NCBI GenBank assembly: GCA_016214125.1
Contig: JACRPC010000012.1
Span: 62,001-126,000, forward strand
Length of the DNA: 64,000 bases
Direction of reading: 5' to 3'
Source: Rhodospirillales bacterium
GTDB taxonomy: Bacteria > Pseudomonadota > Alphaproteobacteria > Rhodospirillales > WMHbin7
The notes beneath the pieces were generated by a model that worked only from the letters and a program-made list of their open reading frames with translations, ran no database searches and had not been told where the DNA came from. The position numbers were made by a program, and so were the translations under genes. Below, one piece after another: positions 11,002 to 64,000 of this stretch (position 1 is the stretch's first letter; every line of letters starts with the position of its first letter).

Positions 11002-12942
<1,941 letters not shown>

Positions 12943-13142
12943 AACGGCTGGTTCTCCCCTTCCTCGGATTGGCAACGGGCGCGCCGGCTCGATCTCCCGC
13001 GATTACCGGAGCCCCAAACGCGGCGGATTATGGCAGAAAACCAAGGTCTGGCAAGCCTGGGGAGACCCCTTAGAGAGCCATGCGACGGGCTTTACGGCCG
13101 GCGCGTCTTGGCCCAAAATGCCCGGGCAACGAGGAGGTTGGA

Positions 13143-13466
13143 ATGGTCGATATCAAGAAGTCGAGTGCGTCCCAAGAGGCGTCCCACGCCAAGAAGGAAG
13201 AATTGGAATTCAAGGTCGTCGCCCGGCGCAACAAGATGGCCGGCCTGTGGGCGGCTGAACTGCTGGGCCTGATCGGCCAAGCCTCGAAAGATTATGCCCG
13301 CGAGGTCATGCACGCCGATTTCGAGGAAAAGGGCGACGAAGACGTGGTCCGCAAGCTGGCCAAGGACCTGCACGGCAAGGCCGACCACCAGACAATCCGC
13401 CAGAAGCTGGCCGACTTCCTACACATCGCCAGGAAGGAAGTGCACGACGAGCATAAGGGGTCGTAG
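13143..13466 (+). CDS. DUF1476 protein, ATPase inhibitor subunit zeta
   Basis: A 107-aa helical protein with the family signature FKVVARRNKMAGLWAAELLG, then YAREVMHADFEEKGDEDVVRK. In alphaproteobacteria such as Paracoccus, the zeta subunit binds the F1 ATP synthase and blocks ATP hydrolysis through its N terminus. The start at 13143 follows a strong GAGGAGG site; the longer frame from 13080 is unlikely. The first 20 residues (MVDIKKSSASQEASHAK), the region used for inhibition, differ from the short MTTFDDREKAFE form I recall for other members. Confidence 0.9.
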   Translation: MVDIKKSSASQEASHAKKEELEFKVVARRNKMAGLWAAELLGLIGQASKDYAREVMHADFEEKGDEDVVRKLAKDLHGKADHQTIRQKLADFLHIARKEVHDEHKGS

Positions 13467-50519: not shown

Positions 50520-52310
50520 ATGGCGGCTGAGACCCCTTCTGTGAAAGCGCCAAGCTTCGCCGGTCGGTTTCTGGCGTTGGCGGGCGGCTATTGGGCGGGC
50601 GAGCGGAAATGGCATGTCCGCTTCCTGACGCTCGCCCTTCTCGTGCTCACCATCGGCCAGGTGATCGTGCCGGTGCTAATCAATCTGTGGAGCCAGCAGC
50701 TTTTCGACGCCCTCGAACAACGCTCGATGGACCGCTTTCTGGTCATGGTGCTGATGGTGTTCGGCATCATCGCCTTCAACATCGTCAACACTATCTTGCA
50801 TCTTCGGGTCAAGCGGCGGCTGCAATTCGGCTGGCGGCAATGGCTGTCGCAGAAGGTGATCGACGATTGGCTGTCGCGCGGCCGCCACCACCAGATCACC
50901 TATCTGCCCGGCGATCACGACAATCCGGACGGCCGCATCGCCGAGGACGTGCGCATTTCGACCGAATACGCCATCGAGCTTGGCCATTCGCTCACCTACT
51001 GCGTTCTTTTGCTCATCAGCTTCGTCAACATTCTGTGGATTCTGTCGGGTTCGCTGGAAGTCCCCTTCGGCGACACCATCATCGAGATTCCCGGCTATCT
51101 TCTTTACATCGCGCTCCTCTACGCCGCCTCAGGCACCGCGATTGCCATGTGGCTGGGCCAGCCCTTGGTCACCACCTCGAACAACCGCCAGGGCTACGAA
51201 GCCGATTTCCGCTTCGGTCTGGCGCGCATCCGCGAAAACGCCCAGGCGATCGCCCTGCTGCACGGCGAGGCCGACGAGCGCCGACGCATGTTCGATCTGT
51301 TCTTTTGGGTCCGCAAGGGCTGGTACCGGCAGACCACCGCGCTTTCCAACATGATGGTGTTCAGCGCCGCCTATTCGGTGCTGTCGGCGGCCTTCCCCAT
51401 CCTGGTCGCCGCGCCGCGCTACATCGCCGGCACCATCACGCTGGGCGTGCTGATGCAGACCGCCCAGGCCTTCCAGCAGGCGGTGGCGGCGCTCTCCTGG
51501 CCGATCGACAATCTGCCGCGCGCCGCCGATTGGAAGGCCTCGGTCGAACGGGTGCTGGGCCTGGAGGACGCCCTGCACAAGCTCGACCAGGAAATCAATG
51601 GCGAGGGGGCCGAGCGCATCTGCGTCGACCGCCTCGACACCGAGCAGGCGCTGACCTTCCAGGGCCTGTCGATCAGCGAACCCGACGGCAAGACGGTGAT
51701 CGAGCCCTTCGACGCCGTCATCCGCCCGGGCGAACGGGTGCTGATCGTCGGCGATCCCGCCGCCGCCATTCGCCTGTTCCGCGCCGTCGCCCGCGTCTGG
51801 CCCTGGGGCTCGGGCCGCATCGGCCTGCCGTCGCACACCCGCGTCTTCTTCATGGCGCAACGGCCCTATCTGCCGCATGGGCCGCTGCGCGGCGCGCTCA
51901 GCTACCCGGCCGGGCCGGAAACCGTCGAGGACGGCGAGGCCAAGGCGGCGCTGGAGCGCGTCGGCCTCGGGCATCTGGGAGCGCGGCTCGACGACACCGA
52001 CAATTGGGACGAAATCCTGGCCGCCGCCGAATTGCAGCGCCTGGGCTTCGCCCGCCTGCTGGTCCGCCGCCCCGACTGGATCTTCATCGAGGACGCCACC
52101 GACGCCCTTGACGCGACGGGTGAGGAAGAGATGCTGCAACTGCTCGATCACGAATTCGCCCACGCCACCTTGATGACCATCGGCAGCCACATCGCGCTTG
52201 AGCCGCACCACAACCGCAAGCTGGTCTTCGAGCGCACCAACGGCTCGGTCACCATGCGCGAGGATGTCTGCAACCCGACGCCCGAGGGCATTCAAGACCC
52301 GGTGATGTAA
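50520..52310 (+). CDS. SbmA/YddA-type ABC transporter with degenerate ATPase domain
   Basis: A 596-aa fusion. Residues 1-350 are an ABC_membrane_2-type transmembrane domain (six helices; NNRQGYEADFRFGLARIREN). Residues about 380-580 have the ABC ATPase layout but lost key residues. The Walker A position reads LIVGDPAAAIRLFRAVARVW (no GKS/T), the signature LSGGE is replaced by LAAAELQRLGFARLL, and Walker B reads DWIFIEDATDALD. The frame is intact. It probably cannot hydrolyse ATP and may be proton-driven like SbmA. Substrate unknown. Confidence 0.85.
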   Translation: MAAETPSVKAPSFAGRFLALAGGYWAGERKWHVRFLTLALLVLTIGQVIVPVLINLWSQQLFDALEQRSMDRFLVMVLMVFGIIAFNIVNTILHLRVKRRLQFGWRQWLSQKVIDDWLSRGRHHQITYLPGDHDNPDGRIAEDVRISTEYAIELGHSLTYCVLLLISFVNILWILSGSLEVPFGDTIIEIPGYLLYIALLYAASGTAIAMWLGQPLVTTSNNRQGYEADFRFGLARIRENAQAIALLHGEADERRRMFDLFFWVRKGWYRQTTALSNMMVFSAAYSVLSAAFPILVAAPRYIAGTITLGVLMQTAQAFQQAVAALSWPIDNLPRAADWKASVERVLGLEDALHKLDQEINGEGAERICVDRLDTEQALTFQGLSISEPDGKTVIEPFDAVIRPGERVLIVGDPAAAIRLFRAVARVWPWGSGRIGLPSHTRVFFMAQRPYLPHGPLRGALSYPAGPETVEDGEAKAALERVGLGHLGARLDDTDNWDEILAAAELQRLGFARLLVRRPDWIFIEDATDALDATGEEEMLQLLDHEFAHATLMTIGSHIALEPHHNRKLVFERTNGSVTMREDVCNPTPEGIQDPVM

Positions 52311-52409: not shown

Positions 52410-53735
52410 TTACTGGGCCTTGATCAGCGCCCGATACCAATGGGCGGACTTCTTGGGCGTGCGCTTCTGGGTCTTGAAATCGACATGGACGAGGCCGAAG
52501 CGGGTGCCGTAGCCGGCGCCCCATTCGAAATTGTCCAGAAGCGACCAGACGAAATAGCCCCGCACGTCAGCCCCTTGCCGCTTCGCCTGACGCATCGCCC
52601 GCACATAGGCAGCAAGATAATCGACCCGGCGGGGATCGTCGGCCCCTTCGCCCGACCCCACGCCATAGCCGTTCTCGGTGACGTAAATCGGCAGGCGGTA
52701 GCGGGCGGTGAGATCGAGCAGCGTTTGGCGAAAGGCGTCGGGATCGATCGGCCAGCCGATATCGGTCTTGGGTAGGGATTCGGGCAGCGCGCCCCATTCG
52801 AACCCCCAGCGCATGCCGCCCGGCTCGGCCCGCACATACATGGGCGAATAGTGGTTGAGGCCGAACCAATCGAGCGGCCTGGCGATCCTCGCCATATCGC
52901 CCGCCCGCACATAGGGCTCGATCAGCCGGGCGATGCGCGGCGGATAATGGGCGAGCAATTGGGCGTCGGGGAAGCCCTTGTTCCATACCTCGTCGAACAG
53001 GGCCGCCGCCTCGACATCCTCGGCCGCTTGGCTTTGCGGCCTTGCCGGCTGGACCGAGTGGATGGCGCCGATCGCCGCGTCCGGCACCAAGGCGCGCAAC
53101 GCATCGACGGCCGCGCCATGCGCCAGATTGGTGTGATGGATGGCCTTCAGATGCTCGGCCTGGTTCGAAATGTTGGGCGCCCCCCAGCCCAGCGCGTAGG
53201 CGAAGAAGGTGAAGACCGAAAATTCGTTCATGGTGGCGAAGCGCTTCACCCGATCGCCGAAGCATTTGGCGCAGAGCGCCGCGTAATCGGCGAACCAGCC
53301 GGCCGAATCGCGATGGGGCCAGCCGCCCAGATCCTGCAGGCCCTGCGGCAGATCCCAGTGATAGAGGCAGGCCCAGGGTTCGATGCCCGCTTCCAAGAGG
53401 CCGTCGATGAGGCGGTCGTAGAAGGCGATCCCCGCCGGATTGGGGGCGCCCCGGCCGCGCGGCAACAGGCGCGGCCAGGCGATGGAAAAGCGGTAGGCAT
53501 CGAGCCCCAGCCAACGCATCAGGGCGATGTCGTCCGGCCAGCGGTGATAGTGGTCGCAGGCCGGATCGCCGCGATCGCCGTTGGCGATGCCGCCCTGGCG
53601 CGCCGCCAGCGTGTCCCAGATCGAGGGGCCGCGCCCGTCTTCCTGGGTAGCGCCTTCGATCTGGAAGCTTGAGGTCGAAACGCCCCAGACGAAGTCCTTG
53701 GGGAATGTCGCAAAGGCCTGGCCGGATTTTTTCAC
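52410..53735 (-). CDS. Second family 1 beta-glucosidase
   Basis: A 441-aa GH1 enzyme, clearly paralogous to the one at 49109 (FPKDFVWGVSTSSFQIEGAT, CDHYHRWPDDIALMR, YVTENGYG nucleophile, WSLLDNFEWGAGYG). The acid/base motif reads ATMNEFSVFTFF: the Glu is kept but the usual Pro of NEP is Phe, which may alter activity. No signal peptide. It is divergent from the opine dehydrogenase cassette. Confidence 0.93.
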   Translation of the reverse strand: MKKSGQAFATFPKDFVWGVSTSSFQIEGATQEDGRGPSIWDTLAARQGGIANGDRGDPACDHYHRWPDDIALMRWLGLDAYRFSIAWPRLLPRGRGAPNPAGIAFYDRLIDGLLEAGIEPWACLYHWDLPQGLQDLGGWPHRDSAGWFADYAALCAKCFGDRVKRFATMNEFSVFTFFAYALGWGAPNISNQAEHLKAIHHTNLAHGAAVDALRALVPDAAIGAIHSVQPARPQSQAAEDVEAAALFDEVWNKGFPDAQLLAHYPPRIARLIEPYVRAGDMARIARPLDWFGLNHYSPMYVRAEPGGMRWGFEWGALPESLPKTDIGWPIDPDAFRQTLLDLTARYRLPIYVTENGYGVGSGEGADDPRRVDYLAAYVRAMRQAKRQGADVRGYFVWSLLDNFEWGAGYGTRFGLVHVDFKTQKRTPKKSAHWYRALIKAQ

Positions 53736-53827
53736 GCTTCCCCCGCGCTTGGCACCGTTCGCCCTTTAGAATAGCGATCGCCTCCGCCCCCAGGGAGCCC
53801 CCTTTTGCAGGCCGGGACCGAACCGCC

Positions 53828-53856
53828 TTGCCAATATATGTAAATGCATATATTAT
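53828..53856 (+). promoter_or_regulatory. Cassette promoter with 22-bp palindrome (probable MarR operator)
   Basis: TTGCCA (53828-53833), 17-bp spacer, TATTAT (53851-53856). AATATATG-TAAATG-CATATATT (53833-53854) is a perfect inverted repeat covering the spacer and -10. Size and symmetry fit a MarR dimer; the MarR gene is last in the operon this promoter would drive. Confidence 0.75.
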
Positions 53857-53905
53857 CGCCGCCACACGGGAAGCCAATTCCCGGACAACAATCAGGGAGG
53901 GACCG

Positions 53906-54985
53906 ATGCGCGTTGCGGTTCTGGGGGGCGGCCATGGCGCCTATGCCGCCGCCGCCGATTTGGCCGAACAAGGCCATGCGGTGCGCCTGTGGCGGCGCGA
54001 CGCGCCATCCCTGGCGCCTCTTCTCGAACAAGGCGGCATCGCGCTCAAGGATCATCGCGGCCGCCGTTTGATCGGCATCGAGAAGGCCAGCGGCGCCATC
54101 GGCGAGGTCGTCGAGGGGGCCGAACTGATCCTGCTGCCGATACCCGCCTTTGCCCAGATCGACATCGCCCGCGCCCTGGCGCCCCATCTGGAGGACGGCC
54201 AGGTGCTGTTCCTGCCGCCCGGCAGTTTCGGCGCCTATGCGATGGCCGCCGAACTGCACCAAGCCGGGTGCCAAGCCGCGGTCCTGTTCGCCGAGACCGG
54301 CACCCTGCCCTATCTGGCGCGCAAGCATGGGCCGGCCGAAATCGCCATCACCACGCGGGCCACCCGTCTGCCGACCGGCGTTTTCCCGGCCCGGGCGGCG
54401 CCACGGGCCTTGGCGGTGATCGCCAAGGCCTATCCGGCGGTCGAACCGGCGGGCGACGCGCTGTCCGGCGCGCTGATGAATGCGGGACCGATCATCCATC
54501 CGCCGCTCATCGTGATGAACGCCGGGCCGCTCGAGCATTTCGAGCGCTGGGACATCCACAACGAGGGCACCCAGCCCTCGATCCGCCGGGTCACCGACGC
54601 ACTCGACGCCGAGCGCATCGCCGTTCGGGTGGCGCTGGGCTATGCCGCCCCCCACTTCCCGCTGTCCGACCATTACACCAGCGACCGCTGGATGTACGGC
54701 AACGTCCACGACAAGCTGGTGGAAAGCGGCGATTGGCGCGAGCACATCGATCTCACGACCCATCGCTACATGGTCGAAGACGTCGCTTACGGCCTAGCCT
54801 TCCTGGTCTCGGTCGCCGATTGGGCCCGAGTCAAGGCGCCGGTGGCCAGCGGCCTTTTGGCGATCGCCTCGGCGGTCACCGGCCGGGATTTCCGCCAAGG
54901 CCCCCGCACCCTGGAGGCGCTGGGCCTGGCCAAGCTCGACCGCGAAGCCCTGCGCCGCCGGCTCGATCAGGGCCTTGCGGGATGA
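53906..54985 (+). CDS. Opine (octopine/nopaline) dehydrogenase-family oxidoreductase
   Basis: A 359-aa NAD(P)-dependent enzyme. The dinucleotide site is AVLGGGHGAYAAAADLAEQG (residues 4-23); the C-terminal NAD/NADP octopine/nopaline dehydrogenase domain contains NAGPIIHPPLIVMNAG and the His of PHFPLSDHY. Such enzymes oxidise or form N-(carboxyalkyl) amino acids, joining an amino acid and a 2-oxoacid. Start at ATG 53906 follows GGGAGG. First gene of the cassette; coupled by ATGA to the next. Substrate unknown. Confidence 0.88.
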   Translation: MRVAVLGGGHGAYAAAADLAEQGHAVRLWRRDAPSLAPLLEQGGIALKDHRGRRLIGIEKASGAIGEVVEGAELILLPIPAFAQIDIARALAPHLEDGQVLFLPPGSFGAYAMAAELHQAGCQAAVLFAETGTLPYLARKHGPAEIAITTRATRLPTGVFPARAAPRALAVIAKAYPAVEPAGDALSGALMNAGPIIHPPLIVMNAGPLEHFERWDIHNEGTQPSIRRVTDALDAERIAVRVALGYAAPHFPLSDHYTSDRWMYGNVHDKLVESGDWREHIDLTTHRYMVEDVAYGLAFLVSVADWARVKAPVASGLLAIASAVTGRDFRQGPRTLEALGLAKLDREALRRRLDQGLAG

Positions 54986-56010
54986 ACCAACCCGCCACCA
55001 TCGCCGCCTTGGGCGCCGGTCGCATGGGGCGCGGCATCGCGCTCGCCTTCGCCTATGCCGGCCATCCGGTCTGGCTGCTCGACGTCAAGCCGCGCGATCC
55101 TGCTTCCGCCTTGGCCCGGCAGCGCGACGCCCAGGCCGAGCTTGCGGCAACGCTGGACGCCATGGTGGCGCTGGGCGCCTTTCCGGCGGCCGAGACGCCG
55201 GCCATCCTGGCGCGCATCCGTTACGCCGACCGCCCGGAATCGGCCAAAGGTCTGGCGGAAGCCGATTTCGTCTTCGAGGGCGTGCCGGAAGTGATGGGCG
55301 CCAAACGCGAGGCCTTCGCCTTCGCCGGCCCCCTGATGCGGCCCGAGGCGGTGCTGGCCTCGACGACGTCGACCATGCTGGTCACCACGCTGGCCGGACT
55401 GGTGGCAAGGCCCGAACGCTTCCTCAACGCCCACTGGCTCAACCCGCCGCACATCATCCCGCTGGTCGAGCTGAGCCCCCACCCGGGCACCGCCCCCGAG
55501 GCTCGCGCCGCCCTGATCGCGCTCTTGGAGGGCATCGGCAAGGTACCGATCGAATGCGCCGCCGCGCCTGGCTACATCGTGCCCCGCCTGCAATCGCTGA
55601 TCATGAACGAGGCGGCGCGCATGGTGGAGGAAGGGGTGGCGACACCGGAAGCGATCGACAAGGCCACCCGCTACGGCTTCGGCTTCCGCTACGCCAACAT
55701 GGGGGTGGTCGAGTTCATCGACTATGGCGGCAACGACATCCTCTATTACGCCAGCCGCTACCTTGCCCAGGCGCTGGGCAGCGAGCGCTACGCGTCGCCG
55801 CCGATCGTCGCCCGCTACATGCACGAAGGCCGCAACGGCCTGCGCGAAGGGCGGGGCTTCTACGACTTCACCGGCATCGACGTCAACGCCTACAAGCAAG
55901 AAGCGCTGGGCCGGATGCTCGGCATGCTCAACCATCTGGGCTTGCAGCGCCCCCCCGGCTCGGTGCTTCGCCAATCCCAATCGATAATAACGGAGGAACG
56001 CCATGAATAG
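54982..56010 (+). CDS. 3-hydroxyacyl-CoA-dehydrogenase-like oxidoreductase
   Basis: A 342-aa enzyme of the 3HCDH / carnitine-dehydrogenase-like group. The NAD site is AALGAGRMGRGIALAFAYAG (residues 8-27), the EADFVFEGVPEVMGAKREAF region follows, then NAHWLNPPHIIPLVELSP (His-containing catalytic area), and the C-terminal dimer domain FGFRYANMGVVEFIDYGGND. It may act on a hydroxy acid or hydroxyacyl product linked to the neighbouring opine-type enzyme. Exact substrate cannot be read. Confidence 0.85.
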   Translation: MNQPATIAALGAGRMGRGIALAFAYAGHPVWLLDVKPRDPASALARQRDAQAELAATLDAMVALGAFPAAETPAILARIRYADRPESAKGLAEADFVFEGVPEVMGAKREAFAFAGPLMRPEAVLASTTSTMLVTTLAGLVARPERFLNAHWLNPPHIIPLVELSPHPGTAPEARAALIALLEGIGKVPIECAAAPGYIVPRLQSLIMNEAARMVEEGVATPEAIDKATRYGFGFRYANMGVVEFIDYGGNDILYYASRYLAQALGSERYASPPIVARYMHEGRNGLREGRGFYDFTGIDVNAYKQEALGRMLGMLNHLGLQRPPGSVLRQSQSIITEERHE

Positions 56011-56989
56011 GATGCTCGCGCGATCGGCCTTCGCCCTGGCGGCGTTGGCGACCTTGACCATGCCCGCCTTGGCCCAGAACCTGCCCACCTTGCGGGTCGG
56101 CTGGACCATTCCGGCCGAGGAATCGAAGTACTACATGATGCGCCGTGCCCAGGAATTCCCGAGCCTCGGCAAGATCTACAAGATCGAGTGGGTGCAGTTC
56201 CAGGGCACCACACCGATGATCCAGGCGATGCTGGCCGGCGCGCTCGACTGCGCCACCATGGCGCCAATGTCGCTGGCGCAAGGCCACATCGAAAACGGTC
56301 TCAACGCCTACATCGTCGCCATGCATGTCGGCGAGCGCCCCGGCTCCTTCTCGGGCTACTGGGCGGTAAAAGAGGACTCGCCCATCAAGACCGCCGCCGA
56401 CCTCAAGGGCAAGACGCTGGGTACCAACGCCTATGGCTCGGGCGTCTATTACCACATGCTGCTGTGGCTGAAGCGCAACGGCATCGATCCCGAGCGCGAC
56501 GTCAAGATCGTCGAGACCGGCTTTCCGCCCTCCGAGGACGCCATCCGCTCGGGCCGCGTCGATGCCGGGCCGCTGGTGCAGCCCTTCGCCATCCGCGCCG
56601 AGGAAAAAGGCGGCATCCGCAAGCTGTTCTCGCTGCTCGATGTGCAGTCGCCGAACGTCCAAATCTTCGAGGGCTGCAAGAAGGAATACGCCGACGCGAA
56701 TCCGGCGGTGATCCGCCAATACGTCAAGGACCTCACCGCCTCGATCCGCATGGTGATGGCGAACAAGCCGGAAGCGCGCAAGGTGGTGTCGGAAATCACC
56801 AAAGCCCCCGAGGCCGCGCTGGAAAAGTTCCTCCTCACCGACAAGGACTTCTTCCGCGATCCCGGCGGCAAGCCCGATCTTGCCTCGATCCAGGAGACGT
56901 TCAGCCTTTATTTCAAGGCGGGCTTCCTCAAGCGCGAACTCGACGTCAAGCAATTCAGCAAGGCGGAGCTGACGGCGCCGATCGATTAG
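56003..56989 (+). CDS. NitT/TauT-type ABC transporter, substrate-binding protein
   Basis: A 328-aa periplasmic binding protein with a signal peptide (cleaved after ALA, about residue 24). LRVGWTIPAEESKYYMMRRA, CATMAPMSLAQGHIENGLN, AADLKGKTLGTNAYGSGVYY and the SEDAIRSGRVDAGPLVQPFA block fit the SsuA/TauA/NMT1 group, which binds sulfonates, nitrate, pyrimidine precursors or aromatic acids. It overlaps the upstream gene by 8 nt. GGAGG precedes the ATG. Confidence 0.93.
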   Translation: MNRMLARSAFALAALATLTMPALAQNLPTLRVGWTIPAEESKYYMMRRAQEFPSLGKIYKIEWVQFQGTTPMIQAMLAGALDCATMAPMSLAQGHIENGLNAYIVAMHVGERPGSFSGYWAVKEDSPIKTAADLKGKTLGTNAYGSGVYYHMLLWLKRNGIDPERDVKIVETGFPPSEDAIRSGRVDAGPLVQPFAIRAEEKGGIRKLFSLLDVQSPNVQIFEGCKKEYADANPAVIRQYVKDLTASIRMVMANKPEARKVVSEITKAPEAALEKFLLTDKDFFRDPGGKPDLASIQETFSLYFKAGFLKRELDVKQFSKAELTAPID

Positions 56990-57019
56990 GCCGTACCCGC
57001 CAAGGGGCCGCGTGACGCC

Positions 57020-57790
57020 ATGATCGCCATCGAAGGCCTGTCGAAGACGTTCGAGACCAGCGGCGGCGAGCCGCATCTGGCGCTCGACGGCATTTCGATC
57101 GACATCCCCAAGGGACAATTCCTGTCCATCCTTGGCCCCAGCGGCTGCGGCAAGAGCACCTTGCTCTACATCGTGGGCGGATTCGTGCCGGCCAGCGCCG
57201 GCCGAATCCGCGTCGATGGTCGGGCGATCGCCGGCCCCGGTCCCGATCGCGGTCCGGTTTTCCAGGAATTCGCGCTTTTTCCCTGGAAGACGGTGCGTGG
57301 CAACGTTCTTTACGGCCTCTTGCAGCAAGGGGTGCCCCGCGACCAGGCGGAGCGCCGGGTGAGCGAATTGCTGCAGATGGTTCATTTGAGCCGCTACGCC
57401 GATTTCTATCCCAAGGAGCTGTCGGGCGGCATGAAGCAGCGGGTGGCGATCGCCCGTACGCTCGCCTACGACCCGGCCATCCTTTTGATGGACGAGCCGT
57501 TCGGGGCGCTCGACGCCCACACCCGCACCAAATTGCAAAACGAACTGCTGTCGATCTGGGAGCGCGACCGCAAGACGGTGCTGTTCGTCACCCACAGCGT
57601 CGAGGAGGCGGTCTATCTGTCGGATCGGGTGATGGTGATGACGCCGTCGCCCGGCCGCCAGAAGGCGGTGTTCGACATCGATCTGCCCCGACCGCGCATC
57701 CGCGCCGAGTTGCTGCTCAACCGGCGCTATCAGGAATATCTGATCGCCATCGAACGGCTGGTCCAGGATGGCGGCGAGGACGAGGCATGA
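57020..57790 (+). CDS. NitT/TauT-type ABC transporter, ATPase
   Basis: A 256-aa ATPase with intact Walker A (LGPSGCGKST), Q-loop, signature LSGGMKQRVAIAR, Walker B ILLMDEPFGALD and the H-loop His in FVTHSVEEAV. It powers import of the cassette substrate. Start at ATG 57020; its stop overlaps the next ATG (ATGA). Confidence 0.96.
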   Translation: MIAIEGLSKTFETSGGEPHLALDGISIDIPKGQFLSILGPSGCGKSTLLYIVGGFVPASAGRIRVDGRAIAGPGPDRGPVFQEFALFPWKTVRGNVLYGLLQQGVPRDQAERRVSELLQMVHLSRYADFYPKELSGGMKQRVAIARTLAYDPAILLMDEPFGALDAHTRTKLQNELLSIWERDRKTVLFVTHSVEEAVYLSDRVMVMTPSPGRQKAVFDIDLPRPRIRAELLLNRRYQEYLIAIERLVQDGGEDEA

Positions 57791-58569
57791 CGCGCTGGCT
57801 TGCCCTGCCCGGCGTTCCCCCGCTGCTGGCGCTTCTGGCCTTGCTGGGGCTGTGGCACCTGGCGGCAACCTTCTTCGGCTACAACTTTTTCCCCACCCCC
57901 GGCGCAGTCTTCAAGACCCTGCCGGCCCTGTTCGGCGAGGCCGAGGCGGCGGCCAACATCGCCGCCTCGGTCAAGCGCATGCTGGCCGGCTTTGCTCTGG
58001 CGCTGGCGGTGGCGGTGCCGCTGGGGCTGATGATGGGACGCAGCCCGCTGGTCGCCAAGCTGGTCAAGCCCCTGGTGGCGACGATCTACCCGGTGCCCAA
58101 AGCGGCCCTGATGCCGATCATCATGCTCTGGCTCGGCATCGGCGATGCGGCGAAAATCTTCGTCATCTTCATCGGCGCCAGCCTGCCCTTGTTGCAGCAC
58201 AGTTTCGGCGGCGCCCTGGCGGTCGATCAGAAACTGATCTGGTCGGCCCAGGCGATGGGACTGGGGCCGGTCAAGCGCCTGTTCGCCGTCGTCCTGCCCT
58301 CGGCCCTGCCCGAGGTGATGATCGGCTGCCGGGTCGGCATCATCATGGCGTTGATCGTCATGGTCAGTTCGGAAATGATCGCCCGCCAGTCGGGCGTCGG
58401 CAACCTGCTCTTCAATTCGGCCGATATGGCGCTTTATGACACCGTCTACGCCATGATCGTGGTGATCGCCGCCATCGGCTTCGTCGCCGACGTCGCCTTC
58501 GAATTCGTGCGCCGCCGTCTCACCTTCTGGGCGGAAATCCACCAAGACCCGCTGGTGCCCAGCGCATGA
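57787..58569 (+). CDS. NitT/TauT-type ABC transporter, permease 1
   Basis: A 260-aa BPD_transp_1 permease with about six helices and an EAA-like loop around AQAMGLGPVKRLFAVVLPSA (residues 156-175). Coupled by 4-nt overlaps on both sides. With the second permease it likely forms a heterodimer. Confidence 0.95.
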   Translation: MTRWLALPGVPPLLALLALLGLWHLAATFFGYNFFPTPGAVFKTLPALFGEAEAAANIAASVKRMLAGFALALAVAVPLGLMMGRSPLVAKLVKPLVATIYPVPKAALMPIIMLWLGIGDAAKIFVIFIGASLPLLQHSFGGALAVDQKLIWSAQAMGLGPVKRLFAVVLPSALPEVMIGCRVGIIMALIVMVSSEMIARQSGVGNLLFNSADMALYDTVYAMIVVIAAIGFVADVAFEFVRRRLTFWAEIHQDPLVPSA

Positions 58570-59327
58570 TCGGCCGCGCCCTCAAATCCCTGATCCTTCA
58601 CAGCGCCTCGTTGATTCTATTGCTCGGCGCCTGGGAGGCCGTCTGCCGCGCCGGCATGGTCAGCCCGCATCTGTTGCCGGCGCCCTCGGCGATTTTCCTG
58701 CGCCTCCTCGTCCAATTGGCCGACCCGGCCTTTCTGATCCATCTGGGCCAGACCGTGCTGCGCATCGCGGTCGGCCTGGCCTTGGCGACCGCGATCGGGG
58801 TCGGCGTCGGTCTGGCGGCCAGCCGCAACCGGCTGATCGGCCGCCTGCTCGAACCCCTGGTGCGCGTTCTGGCGCCCATTCCCAAGATCGCCCTTTACCC
58901 GGCGCTGATCCTGATGCTGGGTTTCGACCATGCTTCGAAGATCGCGCTCATCGTTGCCGACGCGGTCTTTCCCATCCTGCTCGCCACCTATCACGGCGCG
59001 CGCATGGTCGAGCCCAAGCTGATCTGGTCGGCCCGAGCGGCCGGCGCCTCGGAACGCCAATGCACCTTCACCATCGTCTTGCCGGCGGCCCTGCCCTCGA
59101 TCTACACCGGCCTCCGGATCGCGCTGCTCATCGCCTGCGTGGTGGTCTTCCTGGCCGAAATGATCTCGTCCAGCGACGGGCTCGGCCATTTGCTGATCCG
59201 CGCCGCGCGCTCCTTCCGCACGCTCGACATGTTCGTGCCACTGCTCGCCGTTTCGCTGCTCGGCCTGGCGCTCAACGGCCTGGCGACCCTGGCGGGACGG
59301 CGCCTGTTGCGCGGCTTTGCGCTCTGA
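58566..59327 (+). CDS. NitT/TauT-type ABC transporter, permease 2
   Basis: A 253-aa permease of the same family, EAA-like loop ARAAGASERQCTFTIVLPAA (about residues 157-176). Having two different permease genes rather than one is less common in this ABC class and suggests a heteromeric channel. One base separates its stop from the marR ATG. Confidence 0.95.
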   Translation: MIGRALKSLILHSASLILLLGAWEAVCRAGMVSPHLLPAPSAIFLRLLVQLADPAFLIHLGQTVLRIAVGLALATAIGVGVGLAASRNRLIGRLLEPLVRVLAPIPKIALYPALILMLGFDHASKIALIVADAVFPILLATYHGARMVEPKLIWSARAAGASERQCTFTIVLPAALPSIYTGLRIALLIACVVVFLAEMISSSDGLGHLLIRAARSFRTLDMFVPLLAVSLLGLALNGLATLAGRRLLRGFAL

Positions 59328-59328
59328 C

Positions 59329-59781
59329 ATGGCCCCCTCGTCCAGGCATCCGGCCTATCCCGGACATGCGCGCTTTCTGCCCTATCTGCTCAACCGGGCC
59401 ACCGACCGGCTCAATTTGGGCTTCCAGGGCGAGTTGCGGCGCCGGCGCATGACCCTGACCCATTGGCGGGTTCTCGCCTTCCTCACCGAAACCGATGGGC
59501 TGGGCGTCAGCACCTTGGCCGAACGCACCGACACCGACCAATCTACCCTAAGTCGGGCGCTTCAGCAGATGGAGCGGCGCGGCCAGGTCGAACGGCGCGC
59601 CCGAACCGGCGACAGCCGATATGTCGAAATTCATCTCACCGCCTCGGGCCGGGCGCTGTTCAATCAAATGCTGCCCGACGCGCTCGACTATGAACGGAAC
59701 GCCCTGGCCAATCTTTCCCCCGCCGAAAAGGATGCCCTGCGCTCCTTGCTGCTGCGTTTGCTGGAGCCCGCGAAATCGTGA
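59329..59781 (+). CDS. MarR-family regulator of the cassette
   Basis: A 150-aa winged-helix regulator: LTHWRVLAFLTETDGLGVST, LAERTDTDQSTLSRALQQME (recognition region) and the wing RRGQVERRARTGDSRYVEI. MarR dimers bind palindromes of about 20 bp and release on binding a ligand. It is the last gene of the opine/ABC operon, and the perfect palindrome at 53833-53854 is its probable operator. It is co-transcribed with the genes it would control. Confidence 0.92.
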   Translation: MAPSSRHPAYPGHARFLPYLLNRATDRLNLGFQGELRRRRMTLTHWRVLAFLTETDGLGVSTLAERTDTDQSTLSRALQQMERRGQVERRARTGDSRYVEIHLTASGRALFNQMLPDALDYERNALANLSPAEKDALRSLLLRLLEPAKS

Positions 59782-59878
59782 CCGGCCTTGGTCGGGGAAA
59801 TTGTATCGCCCGACACAGACTTTCCCCGCCCGCCACCCTATATTGGTGGCATGGGAGGGGCGGATGACCACAAGAGCC

Positions 59879-60592
59879 CTAGAAATCCTCGCGGCTCAGG
59901 CGTGCCCACAGGGCGCGTTCGTCGCCGATCACCAGGGTGCGGCCTTCGCGCCGCACGATCCCCTTGCGGATCAGCGCGTTCAATTCGCGGCTGGCGGTGA
60001 CGCGCGACAGGCCGAACAGGCTGGCGATGTCCTCGAGCGAGGCGCCGGGGCGGATTTCCGTTTCGCCATTGGACCGTTTCACCCCCGCCGTCGCCGCCAG
60101 ATGACAAAGCAGCAGCGCCAGCCGCGCCGGCCCCTTGAGGAAGGCGGCGGCCTCGATCTGGGTGGCCAGGATGCGCTGGCGCCGCACCAGCACCCGCAGC
60201 GCTTCGCGCAGCATGGCGGGGTCGGCGGCCATCGCCTTCAAGACCGCCGGACGCGGGAAGACGTGGAGCGTGCAGGGGCTGAGCGCCGCCGCCGACAGAT
60301 AGGCCGGCAGGCCGTCGAAGCAGGCCGATTCGCCGAAGGTGTTGCCGGCCTCGATCAGGCTGATCACCCGCGTGCCGCCCTTGGCGCCGGTCAGGTACAT
60401 TTTCACCCGCCCCGATTCCAGATAGTAGAAGCGGTCGCAGACATCGCCCTGGCTGAAGATGATCTGGCCCTTGGCCATGCTGCGCCGCTTGGCCAGCCCC
60501 AAATGGCGCGCCCAGAAATCGGCGCCGCCTTTGCCTTGAAACGGCGAGCCGGCCCATCCCGGTTCCAGTGTGTTGGACGTCTTCGCCGCCAC
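59879..60592 (-). CDS. Crp/Fnr-family regulator
   Basis: A 237-aa protein with an N-terminal cyclic-nucleotide-type sensor barrel (IIFSQGDVCDRFYYLESGRV, GNTFGESACF) and a C-terminal HTH_CRP (ASLEDIASLFGLSRVTASRE). The recognition helix has SRVTASR, where E. coli CRP has SRETVGR, so the Glu that reads TGTGA is Val here. There is no FNR-type N-terminal Cys cluster. GTG 60592 is used. It is divergent from the IOR gene with only 38 bp between, so it may regulate it. Confidence 0.9.
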   Translation of the reverse strand: MAAKTSNTLEPGWAGSPFQGKGGADFWARHLGLAKRRSMAKGQIIFSQGDVCDRFYYLESGRVKMYLTGAKGGTRVISLIEAGNTFGESACFDGLPAYLSAAALSPCTLHVFPRPAVLKAMAADPAMLREALRVLVRRQRILATQIEAAAFLKGPARLALLLCHLAATAGVKRSNGETEIRPGASLEDIASLFGLSRVTASRELNALIRKGIVRREGRTLVIGDERALWARLSREDF

Positions 60593-60630: not shown

Positions 60631-63600
60631 ATGACATCGAACCCCGGCCGCACTCAAGCCTCGCTCGCCGATCGCTACGAGTTGGAGGACGGCACCGTCT
60701 ATCTCAGCGGCATCCAGGCCCTGGTGCGGCTGGTCGTCGACCAGAAGCGCGCCGACGCGCGGGCCGGGCTCAAAACCGGCGCCTTCATCACCGGCTATCC
60801 GGGTTCGCCCCTGGGCGGCATGGACGGCGCACTCGGCCAGGCCAAGCCGCTGCTTGACCGCTTGGGAATCATCCACAAGCCGGCGCAGAACGAGGAATTG
60901 GGCGCCACCAGCCTGATGGGCACCCAGATGATCGACGAGCATCCCTCGGCCGGTTTTGACGGGGTGGTGGGCTATTGGTACGGCAAGGGGCCGGGCGTCG
61001 ATCGTTCGGGCGACGCCATCAAGCACGGCAATTTCGCCGGCACCAGCCGCCACGGCGCGGTGGTGATCTTAAGCGGCGAGGATCACGAGGCGAAAAGCTC
61101 GAGCGTGCCCTACCAGCAGGATTTTCAGTTCGAGCATATGGGGGTGCCGATCCTCTATCCCGCCACGGTGGCCGAGTTCCTGGAGTTGGGCCGGCACGCG
61201 GTGGCGCTGTCGCGCTTCAGCGGCTGCTGGGTGGCCTTGAAACTGGCCGGCGCCCTGTGCGATGGCGGCCAGACGGTGGCGGTGAGCGGCAAGGACATGC
61301 CGATCGTTCGCCCCCAACCCACCTTCAACGGCCAGCCCTTCCAGAAGAAGGCGAATTTCAAGTTTTTCCCCGGCCTCAACATCGAAACCGAGCGTCAGCT
61401 CTACCACGAGCGTCTGGAGGCGGTGCGCGCCTATGGCCGCGCCAACGGGCTCGACCGCATCGTCGTCGAGGGCAACAAGGATCGCATCGGATTGATCGCC
61501 GCCGGCAAATCCTACACCGACATGCGCCAGGCGCTGGCCGATCTGGGCTTCGACGACGCCGCCTTGCAAGCCGCCGACATCCGCATCTTGAAGATCGGCC
61601 TGCTTGCTCCCCTCGACGAGGCGATCGTCGGCCGCTTCGCCAAAGGGCTCGAGCGCATCATCGTCATCGAGGAAAAGCGCGACTTTCTGGAACGCCAGGT
61701 GGGGGCGGCGCTGGCCCGGCTGGGCCTGGCAGTCCGCCTTTCGGGCAAGCATGACGAGGCCGGCCAAATCCAATTCCCGCAGCAAGGCGGCTTCGACGCC
61801 GACGTCATCGCCCCCATCCTCGCCCGGCGCCTGGGCTCGCACGGCGTTGCCCTGCCCGCCCGCGCCCCCGCCCGCCTGGCCGAGGTGACGGCGGTTCGCG
61901 GCCGCACCTATCCGGCGCTTCTGCGCCGCACGCCCAATTTCTGTTCCGGCTGTCCGCACAACGGTTCGATCCGTCTGGCGCCCGGCCAGCAGGCCTGGGC
62001 GGCGCCCGGCTGTCACATCTTCGCCATCATGATGAAGGACCCCCAGCGCCGGATCGAGGCCGTCACCCAGTTCGGCGGCGAGGGCATGCCCTGGATCGGG
62101 CTGGCGCCCTACACCGCCCGGCCGCACATCGTCCAGAACATCGGCGACGGTTCGCTGTTCCATGCCAGCTATCTCAACATCCGTTACGCCATCTCGCAGG
62201 GCGTTTCGATGACCTTCAAGATTCTCTACAACGGCGCCATCGCCAACACCGGCGGCCAGCCGCCGGTCTCGGCCAAGACCGTTCCCGAGCTGGCCGGCTT
62301 GTTGGCGATCGAGGGCGCGGTCCGCATCGCCATCGTCACCCGCGAGCCCCAACGCTACCGCGGCGATACCCTGCCCGCCGGCACCGAGATCCGTGATCCC
62401 GACGGTCTGGTCGATCTCCTGAAGGATTTCGAGCAGACCAAGGGCGTCACCGTCGCCATTCTGGACGGCATGTGCGCCAACGAGCGCCGCCGCCAGCAAA
62501 AGCGCGGCAAACGCCCGCCCACCACCCAATTCACCCTGATCAACGAAGAGGTCTGCGAAAATTGCGGCCAGTGCGGCGACAAGGCGAATTGCATGTCGTT
62601 GCAGAAGGTGGACACCGCGCTGGGTCCCAAGACCTTCATCCACCAATCCTCGTGCAACCAGGATCAAAGTTGCGTCGCCGCCGATTGCCCCTCCTTCCTC
62701 ACCGTCGAGACGGCGCCCGGCCAGGGGCCGCGCAAGCCCAAGCCGCCCACCCTCGACATGGCCTTGCCGGCGCCGGCGCCGGCGGCCTTGGACCGGCCCT
62801 ACCATGTCTACATCCCCGGCGTCGGCGGCACCGGCGTGGTCACCGTCAACGCCATCCTGGCCCAGGCGGCGATGCTCGACGGCCTAGCGGTGATCGGCTT
62901 CGATCAGATGGGTGCCAGCCAGAAATGGGGAACCGTGCTGTCCAGCCTCATCCTTTCCCGCCAGCCCCTGGCCGCCAGCAACAAGGTGGGGCTGGGCAAG
63001 GCCGATCTTTATCTGGTGCTCGATCCGGTGGCCGGCTCGGACGCGCTCAATCTCGATCGCTGCACGCCGGGCAAGACGGTTGCCATCGTCAACACCGACA
63101 TCCTGCCCACCGCCGAGATGGTGCGCGACGTTCACCTGGCGGTGCCGAGCCAGGGCATGCTGGCGGCGATCGACGCCGCCTCCGATCCGGCCCGCAACCG
63201 CCGGCTCGACGCCAGGCGGATCGCCGAAGCGCTGCTGGGCGATTACATGATGACCAACATGGTGGCGGTGGGCGCCGTCATTCAGACCGGCCTGTTGCCG
63301 ATCTCGCCCGCCAGCCTCGAGGCGGCAATCGGCATCAACGGCGTCCAGGTCGAAGCCAATCTGGCGGCCTTTCGGGCCGGACGCTTGAGCCAGTCCGATC
63401 CGAAGCGTCTGGCCCAGATGGTGCCGGCGCAGGCGCCGACCTTGGCCGACCGCTTTGCCCATCTCGCGCAAACCCGCAGCCCGGCCCGCCAGGCGGCGCT
63501 GGAACGCCTGACCGCCCGCCTGGGCGAGACCGACGCCGAAACGCGCGATCTGTTCCTTAAGCTGGCCGAGGATTTGATCGACTATCAGAACGAGGCCTAC

Positions 63601-64000
63601 GCCGCCCGTTTTTCCGAACGGGTGGCGATGGCCAATCGCCAGGAGCGTCAGACGCTGGGCAGCGCCGCCAACGGCCGGCTGACCCGGGCCGCCATACGCG
63701 GCCTGCACAAGCTGATGGCCTATAAGGACGAGTACGAGGTGGCGCGCCTGATGGTCCAGCCGGTCTTCCAGGAACGAATGCAGGCCCTGTTTGCGCCGGG
63801 CGCCAAATTCTCTTATCGCTTCCAGCCGCCCGCTTTGCGCCATTTCGGCTTGAAAAAGAAGCTCGCCCTTGGCTTGGGCTTCACGCCGATTCTGAAAGGG
63901 CTGGCTGGATTACGCGGCCTGCGCGGCGGCGCGCTCGATCCGTTCGCGCGCAATCCGGCAAGGCGGGAGGAACGCCGCCTGATCGGCTGGTACGAGGGAC
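60631..64000 (+). CDS. Indolepyruvate ferredoxin oxidoreductase, fused alpha-gamma form, partial
   Basis: An open frame of 1123 codons from ATG 60631 to the right edge with no stop; family members are about 1150-1170 aa, so little is missing. It decarboxylates aryl 2-oxoacids to aryl-CoA with ferredoxin reduction. Seen: TGYPGSPLGGMD near the start, SGCPHNGSIR, the TPP-binding GDGSLFHASYLNIRYA with YNGAIANTGGQ, the Cys-rich iron-sulfur segment NEEVCENCGQCGDKANC and CNQDQSCVAADCP, then the gamma domain starting IPGVGGTGVVTVNAI. It fits aromatic amino acid breakdown. Confidence 0.95.
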   Translation, partial: MTSNPGRTQASLADRYELEDGTVYLSGIQALVRLVVDQKRADARAGLKTGAFITGYPGSPLGGMDGALGQAKPLLDRLGIIHKPAQNEELGATSLMGTQMIDEHPSAGFDGVVGYWYGKGPGVDRSGDAIKHGNFAGTSRHGAVVILSGEDHEAKSSSVPYQQDFQFEHMGVPILYPATVAEFLELGRHAVALSRFSGCWVALKLAGALCDGGQTVAVSGKDMPIVRPQPTFNGQPFQKKANFKFFPGLNIETERQLYHERLEAVRAYGRANGLDRIVVEGNKDRIGLIAAGKSYTDMRQALADLGFDDAALQAADIRILKIGLLAPLDEAIVGRFAKGLERIIVIEEKRDFLERQVGAALARLGLAVRLSGKHDEAGQIQFPQQGGFDADVIAPILARRLGSHGVALPARAPARLAEVTAVRGRTYPALLRRTPNFCSGCPHNGSIRLAPGQQAWAAPGCHIFAIMMKDPQRRIEAVTQFGGEGMPWIGLAPYTARPHIVQNIGDGSLFHASYLNIRYAISQGVSMTFKILYNGAIANTGGQPPVSAKTVPELAGLLAIEGAVRIAIVTREPQRYRGDTLPAGTEIRDPDGLVDLLKDFEQTKGVTVAILDGMCANERRRQQKRGKRPPTTQFTLINEEVCENCGQCGDKANCMSLQKVDTALGPKTFIHQSSCNQDQSCVAADCPSFLTVETAPGQGPRKPKPPTLDMALPAPAPAALDRPYHVYIPGVGGTGVVTVNAILAQAAMLDGLAVIGFDQMGASQKWGTVLSSLILSRQPLAASNKVGLGKADLYLVLDPVAGSDALNLDRCTPGKTVAIVNTDILPTAEMVRDVHLAVPSQGMLAAIDAASDPARNRRLDARRIAEALLGDYMMTNMVAVGAVIQTGLLPISPASLEAAIGINGVQVEANLAAFRAGRLSQSDPKRLAQMVPAQAPTLADRFAHLAQTRSPARQAALERLTARLGETDAETRDLFLKLAEDLIDYQNEAYAARFSERVAMANRQERQTLGSAANGRLTRAAIRGLHKLMAYKDEYEVARLMVQPVFQERMQALFAPGAKFSYRFQPPALRHFGLKKKLALGLGFTPILKGLAGLRGLRGGALDPFARNPARREERRLIGWYEG

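Follow-up and report, generated by a model that had tools for sequence, protein, structure and literature searches.

We analysed a 64,000-nucleotide stretch of DNA from a Rhodospirillales bacterium (GenBank assembly GCA_016214125.1, contig JACRPC010000012.1, positions 62,001 to 126,000; hereafter the window). Between positions 53828 and 59781 it contains a cassette of seven plus-strand genes, in which an octopine/nopaline-dehydrogenase-family oxidoreductase (ODH) and a 3-hydroxyacyl-CoA-dehydrogenase-family protein (HBD) are followed by an ATP-binding cassette (ABC) importer and, last, a MarR-family regulator. The cassette probably serves the inducible import and oxidation of an organic acid of the indole type, related to auxin, and so feeds auxin catabolism. 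Support comes from other genomes, where the ODH–HBD pair recurs in unrelated lineages at all three types of auxin-degradation locus. What is new here is a catabolic cassette with a link to auxin whose two enzymes are uncharacterised as a pair. Its genes are as follows.

53906–54985, plus strand: ODH, NAD(P) oxidoreductase of the octopine/nopaline dehydrogenase family, 359 amino acids (PF02317)
54982–56010, plus strand: HBD, 3-hydroxyacyl-CoA-dehydrogenase family, 342 amino acids (PF02737/PF00725)
56003–56989, plus strand: substrate-binding protein (SBP) of a NitT/TauT (SsuA/TauA-like) ABC importer (NMT1_2 and Phosphonate-bd matches)
57020–57790, plus strand: ABC ATPase (PF00005)
57787–58569, plus strand: ABC permease 1 (PF00528)
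58566–59327, plus strand: ABC permease 2 (PF00528)
59329–59781, plus strand: MarR-family regulator (PF01047)

The junctions between consecutive genes are −4, −8, +30, −4, −4 and +1 bp in gene order, and all seven family assignments are backed by Pfam matches. An initial annotation, made from the letters of this stretch, had described a gene run joined by overlaps or short gaps and ending in marR, with a two-permease NitT/TauT importer. The coordinates bear out the former (junctions of −8 to +30 bp) and Pfam the latter.

The ODH–HBD pair in other genomes

A scan of genome contigs returned 80 loci with ODH homologues. HBD directly adjoins ODH in nearly all of them where both are on the contig, and taken over about 90 homologous loci from Proteobacteria the two are again nearly always neighbours. 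The gene order of the cassette, which the initial annotation had suggested searching for, is repeated in a member of another family, the Xanthobacteraceae (L035), with the same ABC importer and the MarR gene included. The near-constant adjacency of ODH and HBD together with this recurrence makes it unlikely that the two dehydrogenases are unrelated in regulation, an objection that the annotation had itself raised.

Three unrelated bacterial routes of auxin destruction are known, iaa, iad and iac. The iad route leads from indole-3-acetate (IAA) to anthranilate and is found in Variovorax, Achromobacter and Bradyrhizobium, while the iaa route of Aromatoleum converts IAA anaerobically to 2-aminobenzoyl-CoA.

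Linkage of the pair to iaa genes is seen in Burkholderiaceae and Uliginosibacterium (L009–L012, L015 and L017), where ODH–HBD lies directly downstream of hydantoinase, IaaF, mutase, xanthine dehydrogenase (XDH) and CoA-transferase genes. In these runs IaaF is an acyl-CoA dehydrogenase, the mutase is methylmalonyl-CoA-mutase-like, the oxidoreductase is XDH-type and the CoA-transferase belongs to class III. Further iaa linkage is present in L029, and in L077 with the hydantoinase genes alone. The IaaF copies of L012 and of the window genome carry the GGG motif that is the mark of IaaF (PMC8360864). In the alphaproteobacterial genomes G194 and G287 a fused indolepyruvate-type ferredoxin oxidoreductase (IOR), ODH, HBD and a tripartite ATP-independent periplasmic (TRAP) carrier are followed by the full iaa gene set within 20 kb.

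The pair is likewise linked to iad genes. In Mesorhizobium J18 (L027) ODH, HBD, TRAP genes and iadCDEFG form a single tight same-strand run. Genes of the iad type also lie near the pair in L036, L057, L076, L080, Paracoccus (L090) and the Bradyrhizobium-like genomes G497 and G513, and iadAB-type IOR genes stand beside ODH in L052, L054 and L074. Operons of the iac type adjoin the pair on an Acinetobacter plasmid (L092), in B. cenocepacia (L094) and in a gammaproteobacterial genome (G358). On a maximum-likelihood tree of ODH the auxin-locus labels are scattered, with 16 changes needed to account for them.

Comparison of these loci with the window reveals both common and distinct features. Like the cassette, the iad locus is controlled by a MarR protein and takes up an organic acid through an ABC importer, but the window is without the iadCDE oxygenase. 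Burkholderiaceae-type iaa operons have ODH–HBD at their end, whereas the cassette of the window genome stands apart from the iaa genes and brings an importer and a MarR of its own. Main-text searches of the iac, iad and iaa papers, a scope that leaves aside the original iaa papers and the supplements, found no mention of opine or hydroxyacyl dehydrogenases; ODH and HBD likewise do not appear in the main text of PMC9613470, PMC12633357 or PMC10374108, all three of which deal with iad. No paper in the literature searched describes the pair. The initial annotation had not recognised the combination from any named pathway, and indeed no described pathway with the same gene set appeared in this literature.

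Several other gene neighbourhoods were noted around the pair. Bradyrhizobium loci (L056, L071, L088, L137 and others) share a conserved cluster that consists of an α/β hydrolase, an acyl-CoA-dehydrogenase-like flavoprotein, a CoA ligase (47% identical to the iaa ligase), ODH, HBD, a 349-amino-acid protein without NCBIfam or Pfam match, a NitT importer, a dihydroxy-acid-dehydratase-like enzyme, an SBP and a flavin reductase, together with an aminobenzoyl-CoA-monooxygenase-like enzyme. This cluster looks like an undescribed pathway for an indole or aromatic acid. A pyridoxal-phosphate enzyme of the D-cysteine-desulfhydrase/1-aminocyclopropane-1-carboxylate-deaminase family is encoded directly upstream of ODH in L064 (by profile) and in L128 and L132 (by sequence resemblance). 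Large open reading frames downstream of HBD in L022, L028 and L064 were considered as ferredoxin oxidoreductases; they are histidine kinases.

The two dehydrogenases

ODH matches PF02317 with 93 bits (cut-off 30; E = 2e-26) and contains both the Rossmann and the helical Octopine_DH domain. Among solved structures it comes closest to that of N-(1-D-carboxylethyl)-L-norvaline dehydrogenase (PDB entry 1bg6), with 28% identity over the full length (phmmer E = 6e-33). The AlphaFold model of ODH (pLDDT 92) superposes on this structure with a VIA Z of 41.5. A histidine and an aspartate are the catalytic residues of the opine dehydrogenase family, and His198 and Asp292 of ODH align with those of 1bg6. 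Both are invariant across 39 ODH homologues from alpha-, beta- and gammaproteobacteria, as are a further catalytic residue, Arg287, and four aromatic ones, Trp215, Trp262, Tyr264 and Trp277. These homologues are 54–75% identical to the window protein, with one deep outlier at 45%. The invariant residues and the high identity suggest one conserved function and substrate. ODH thus resembles 1bg6 in fold, domain make-up and catalytic residues, but differs from it in its overall sequence, its own set of invariant aromatic residues and its near-constant pairing with HBD.

The label of opine-type enzyme given in the initial annotation is therefore apt for the fold and the catalytic residues, though opine activity does not follow from it. 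Structure comparison places ketopantoate reductase and D-mandelate dehydrogenase in the same fold class, which means that the fold leaves the substrate unfixed and does not imply opine chemistry. True opine catabolism, with oxidative cleavage of an N-(1-carboxyalkyl) hydrophobic amino acid by ODH, further conversion of the released keto or hydroxy acid by HBD and no tie to auxin, is in agreement with 1bg6 being the nearest structure and with the retained His/Asp pair. Genes for amino-acid or keto-acid processing, however, do not travel with the ODH–HBD pair, and the linkage to auxin loci would be left unexplained. Given also the breadth of the fold class, we regard this alternative as improbable.

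HBD consists of the 3HCDH_N and 3HCDH domains and scores 465.6 bits against NCBIfam PRK08269 (cut-off 427). The Ser-His-Glu residues of the family are kept as Ser130, His151 and Glu163. In all 92 of the 92 HBD homologues a proline (Pro201) occupies the position of the canonical asparagine in the xNR (VNR) motif of CoA-dependent members; this position is an asparagine in PDB entries 3mog, 9fbd, 6aa8 and 4kug. The HWLNPPHIIP motif of HBD resembles HWSNPPHIIP of PDB entry 4om8 and not HFFNPxPxMKLVE. Entry 4om8 is 5-formyl-3-hydroxy-2-methylpyridine 4-carboxylic acid (FHMPC) dehydrogenase of vitamin B6 degradation, an enzyme with a heteroaromatic, non-CoA substrate. HBD shares the two-domain family with both 4om8 and the 3-hydroxybutyryl-CoA dehydrogenases; it has the HWxNPPHIIP motif in common with the former and differs from the latter by the invariant Pro201, although overall it is no more similar to 4om8 than to CoA-dependent members. 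The substrate of HBD is probably not a CoA ester. Classical β-oxidation was considered as a role for the cassette and set aside.

Promoter, candidate operator and MarR regulator

Upstream of ODH two elements were found.

53828–53856, plus strand: σ70-like promoter TTGCCA-17-TATTAT (10/12 matches; mean 0.6 in shuffles)
53833–53854: imperfect 22 bp palindrome AATATATG-TAAATG-CATATATT, candidate MarR operator

The promoter is the sole σ70-like site in 53700–59900, and its spacer is occupied by the 22-mer AATATATGTAAATGCATATATT of the palindrome. A promoter filled by a perfect palindrome had been reported for this position. The filling of the spacer holds, but the repeat is not perfect: its 8 bp arms are, while the 6 bp centre is asymmetric, so that 18 of the 22 positions match. 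The pattern with these arms fixed occurs once in the 64 kb window, against an expectation of 0.01, and an inverted repeat with any 8 bp arms arises in just 26 of 2000 shuffles of the 170 bp leader. The palindrome is a putative binding site for the MarR protein of the cassette.

Among all MarR structures, the best PDB matches of this protein are 3cjn, 3cdh, MarR_50 (7kki) and IadR (7kfo), three of which (3cdh, 7kki and 7kfo) are MarRs of auxin loci. The MarRs encoded beside ODH–HBD in L035 and L036 are 48–53% identical to it. In the IadR-type MarR_73, IAA is contacted by Arg46 and Ser28 (PMC9613470). Compared with IadR, the window MarR keeps the carboxylate-contacting arginine (Arg51) but has Asn33 at the position of the IAA-contacting serine, a replacement that is common to the MarRs beside ODH in L035, L036 and L089. 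This combination suggests that the window MarR is probably tuned to an aromatic acid that is related to the ligand of IadR but different from it.

The importer

The type of importer that accompanies ODH–HBD differs by locus and can be a NitT/TauT-type ABC system as in the window, a TRAP carrier, a Liv-type ABC system or a major facilitator superfamily (MFS) transporter. The SBP–ATPase–permease–permease set of the window is found in L035, in Pseudomonas daroniae/dryadis and in Bradyrhizobium-type loci. ODH–HBD is thus the constant part of these loci and the importer is exchangeable. In four loci (L070, at 11861–13213, and L043, L049 and L075) a malonyl-CoA decarboxylase gene is inserted between the SBP and permease genes of a NitT/TauT-type importer.

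Taken at face value, the annotation of the importer would make the cassette a sulfonate- or taurine-type utilisation operon. The SBP does match SsuA_fam (NCBIfam TIGR01728), with a score of 108.8 bits that lies under the cut-off of 163.5 and does not place it in that family, and its model is nearest to SsuA/TauA/Thi5 folds, although the fold search is uninformative on the ligand. The cassette has no desulfonating enzyme, however, and the pair is served by TRAP, Liv or MFS transporters elsewhere. A sulfonate-related role is highly improbable.

Genomic surroundings of the cassette

The following genes flank the cassette in the window.

52410–53735, divergent, upstream of the cassette: glycoside hydrolase family 1 (GH1) β-glucosidase
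59879–60592, minus strand, downstream of the cassette: CRP/FNR-like gene
60631–64000 and on to C1:126161, plus strand: fused 2-oxoacid (indolepyruvate-type) ferredoxin oxidoreductase, 1176 amino acids, extending 161 bp beyond the window

The cassette had been called self-contained. This is correct on the upstream side, where the GH1 gene is divergent; downstream, the CRP/FNR-like gene is followed by the IOR-family gene within 1 kb. An SbmA/BacA-like ABC transporter with fused membrane and ATPase parts lies further upstream (50520–52310, plus strand). It was considered as part of the cassette and dropped, its counterparts near ODH in L022 and L024 being just 33% identical.

The fused IOR gene, which was found by a search with the iad-type IOR α-subunit and is complete in L122, starts 0.85 kb beyond marR. 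L130 and L133 have a fused IOR as well, there about 1 kb upstream of ODH. The window protein shares just about 24% identity with the iad-type IOR and is not orthologous to it, and the genome holds two further fused copies and one α-type copy, so that adjacency to the cassette is by itself a weak argument. The downstream IOR is a possible partner of the cassette.

An iaa-type operon is present on the same contig, about 80–100 kb from the cassette (C1:115.8–121.8 kb), and this separation indicates that the two are separate units. At C1:205–212 kb it contains the hydantoinase pair (A and B), the mutase (C1:205042–206622, 77% identical to that of L012) and IaaF with the GGG motif, the gene set by which an iaa locus is recognised. 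CoA ligase, thiolase, two hydratase-like and XDH-type genes also belong to the operon. The wider region C1:195–218 kb (L103 and L104) has the appearance of a complete operon of the anaerobic type and also encodes a TRAP carrier and two proteins that resemble aminobenzoate-CoA ligase. The Rieske oxygenases of the iad and iac routes (iadDE/iacCD) and IacA are absent from the window, and the genome as a whole has no match to iadD and none to IacA at E = 1e-50.

Proposed function and alternatives

The initial annotation had suggested import and two-step oxidation of an unusual amino-acid-derived or hydroxylated acid. Import and two-step oxidation of an organic acid by a co-regulated unit agree with the ODH–HBD adjacency and the gene order of L035. 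As for the substrate, the recurrence of the pair at all three types of auxin locus favours an acid of the indole type over an opine, a betaine or a general amino acid. An indolic or auxin-related substrate is, in our estimate, somewhat better supported than not.

Co-occurrence in genomes is in agreement with such a substrate. Among 318 Alphaproteobacteria IaaF is present in seven, ODH in 12 and both in four (hypergeometric p = 4e-5, or 6e-4 without the window's own genome), and among 234 Pseudomonadota ODH is present in 3/3 of those with iadD (p = 1.7e-5); these values ignore phylogeny, with G194 and G287 belonging to one genus and G413, G497 and G513 to another. This dependence is one of several points that weigh against a role tied to auxin. 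Auxin genes are absent within 9–10 kb in 75 of the 96 rows of the ODH tree; the flanks of these auxin-negative loci are short, and in several of the genomes auxin loci are present at other places. The iaa operon of the window genome does not adjoin the cassette, and the regulator carries Asn33 in place of the serine of IadR. Rieske-type genes in general are commoner in ODH-positive genomes, so part of the co-occurrence signal may reflect metabolic versatility.

The last observation would also fit a broader aromatic-acid cassette for non-indolic plant or lignin hydroxy acids, such as hydroxyphenyl compounds, with the auxin linkage reflecting the clustering of aromatic genes. So would a Novosphingobium locus (L059, 7216–16059), in which genes for an FAD-oxidase, ODH, HBD, a CoA transferase and, from the homogentisate pathway, 4-hydroxyphenylpyruvate dioxygenase (HPPD) and fumarylacetoacetase all lie on the plus strand, and the UbiD, RPE65-type or FAD-oxidase genes near ODH–HBD at other loci. 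Recurrent independent linkage to three unrelated auxin pathways, as in the Mesorhizobium run and the operon-like sets of Burkholderiaceae, is nevertheless more specific than general clustering, and the conservation of ODH suggests a single substrate. We consider the broader role unlikely.

For the preferred role in the uptake and oxidation of an indole-type acid, the genes and their order, the conserved ODH–HBD pairing and its repeated linkage to iaa, iad and iac loci are observed, and we infer the substrate class, the direction of the reactions and the regulation. MarR would repress the promoter from the palindrome between the −35 and −10 elements and would be released on binding the aromatic acid. 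The NitT/TauT-type importer would take up this acid, and ODH and HBD would carry out two NAD(P)-linked oxidations to a compound that enters IAA catabolism. In the window organism the entry point would be the anaerobic-type iaa pathway, perhaps via indolepyruvate and the nearby ferredoxin oxidoreductase.

The iac, iad and iaa routes have IAA in common and few steps otherwise, and a shared accessory module would therefore most simply act upstream of IAA. Given the recurrent IOR genes near ODH (in the window, L130, L133 and the iad-type loci) and the HPPD gene of L059, it is reasonable to expect an aryl-2-oxo acid as the product. This leads to the oxidation of an aryl (indole) lactate, for instance indole-3-lactate to indolepyruvate, as a working guess that we rate as unlikely in this specific form; a similar 2-substituted indole acid is the alternative guess. 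More generally, we tentatively propose, at somewhat less than even likelihood, that ODH–HBD forms a hitherto undescribed entry module of two enzymes, found in many bacteria that degrade auxin. The module would turn an indole acid of plant or microbial origin, not IAA itself but for instance indole-3-lactate, into an intermediate of IAA catabolism. Loci of the iaa, iad and iac types would each have acquired it independently and with different importers, while in the window it would be a stand-alone cassette for import and oxidation.

If this is true, it would explain enzymes that are annotated merely as 'octopine dehydrogenase' and '3-hydroxybutyryl-CoA dehydrogenase'. Auxin-degrading bacteria would also draw on a second indole compound that occurs in soil and near roots, and the pair would provide a handle on the compounds besides IAA that these bacteria remove.

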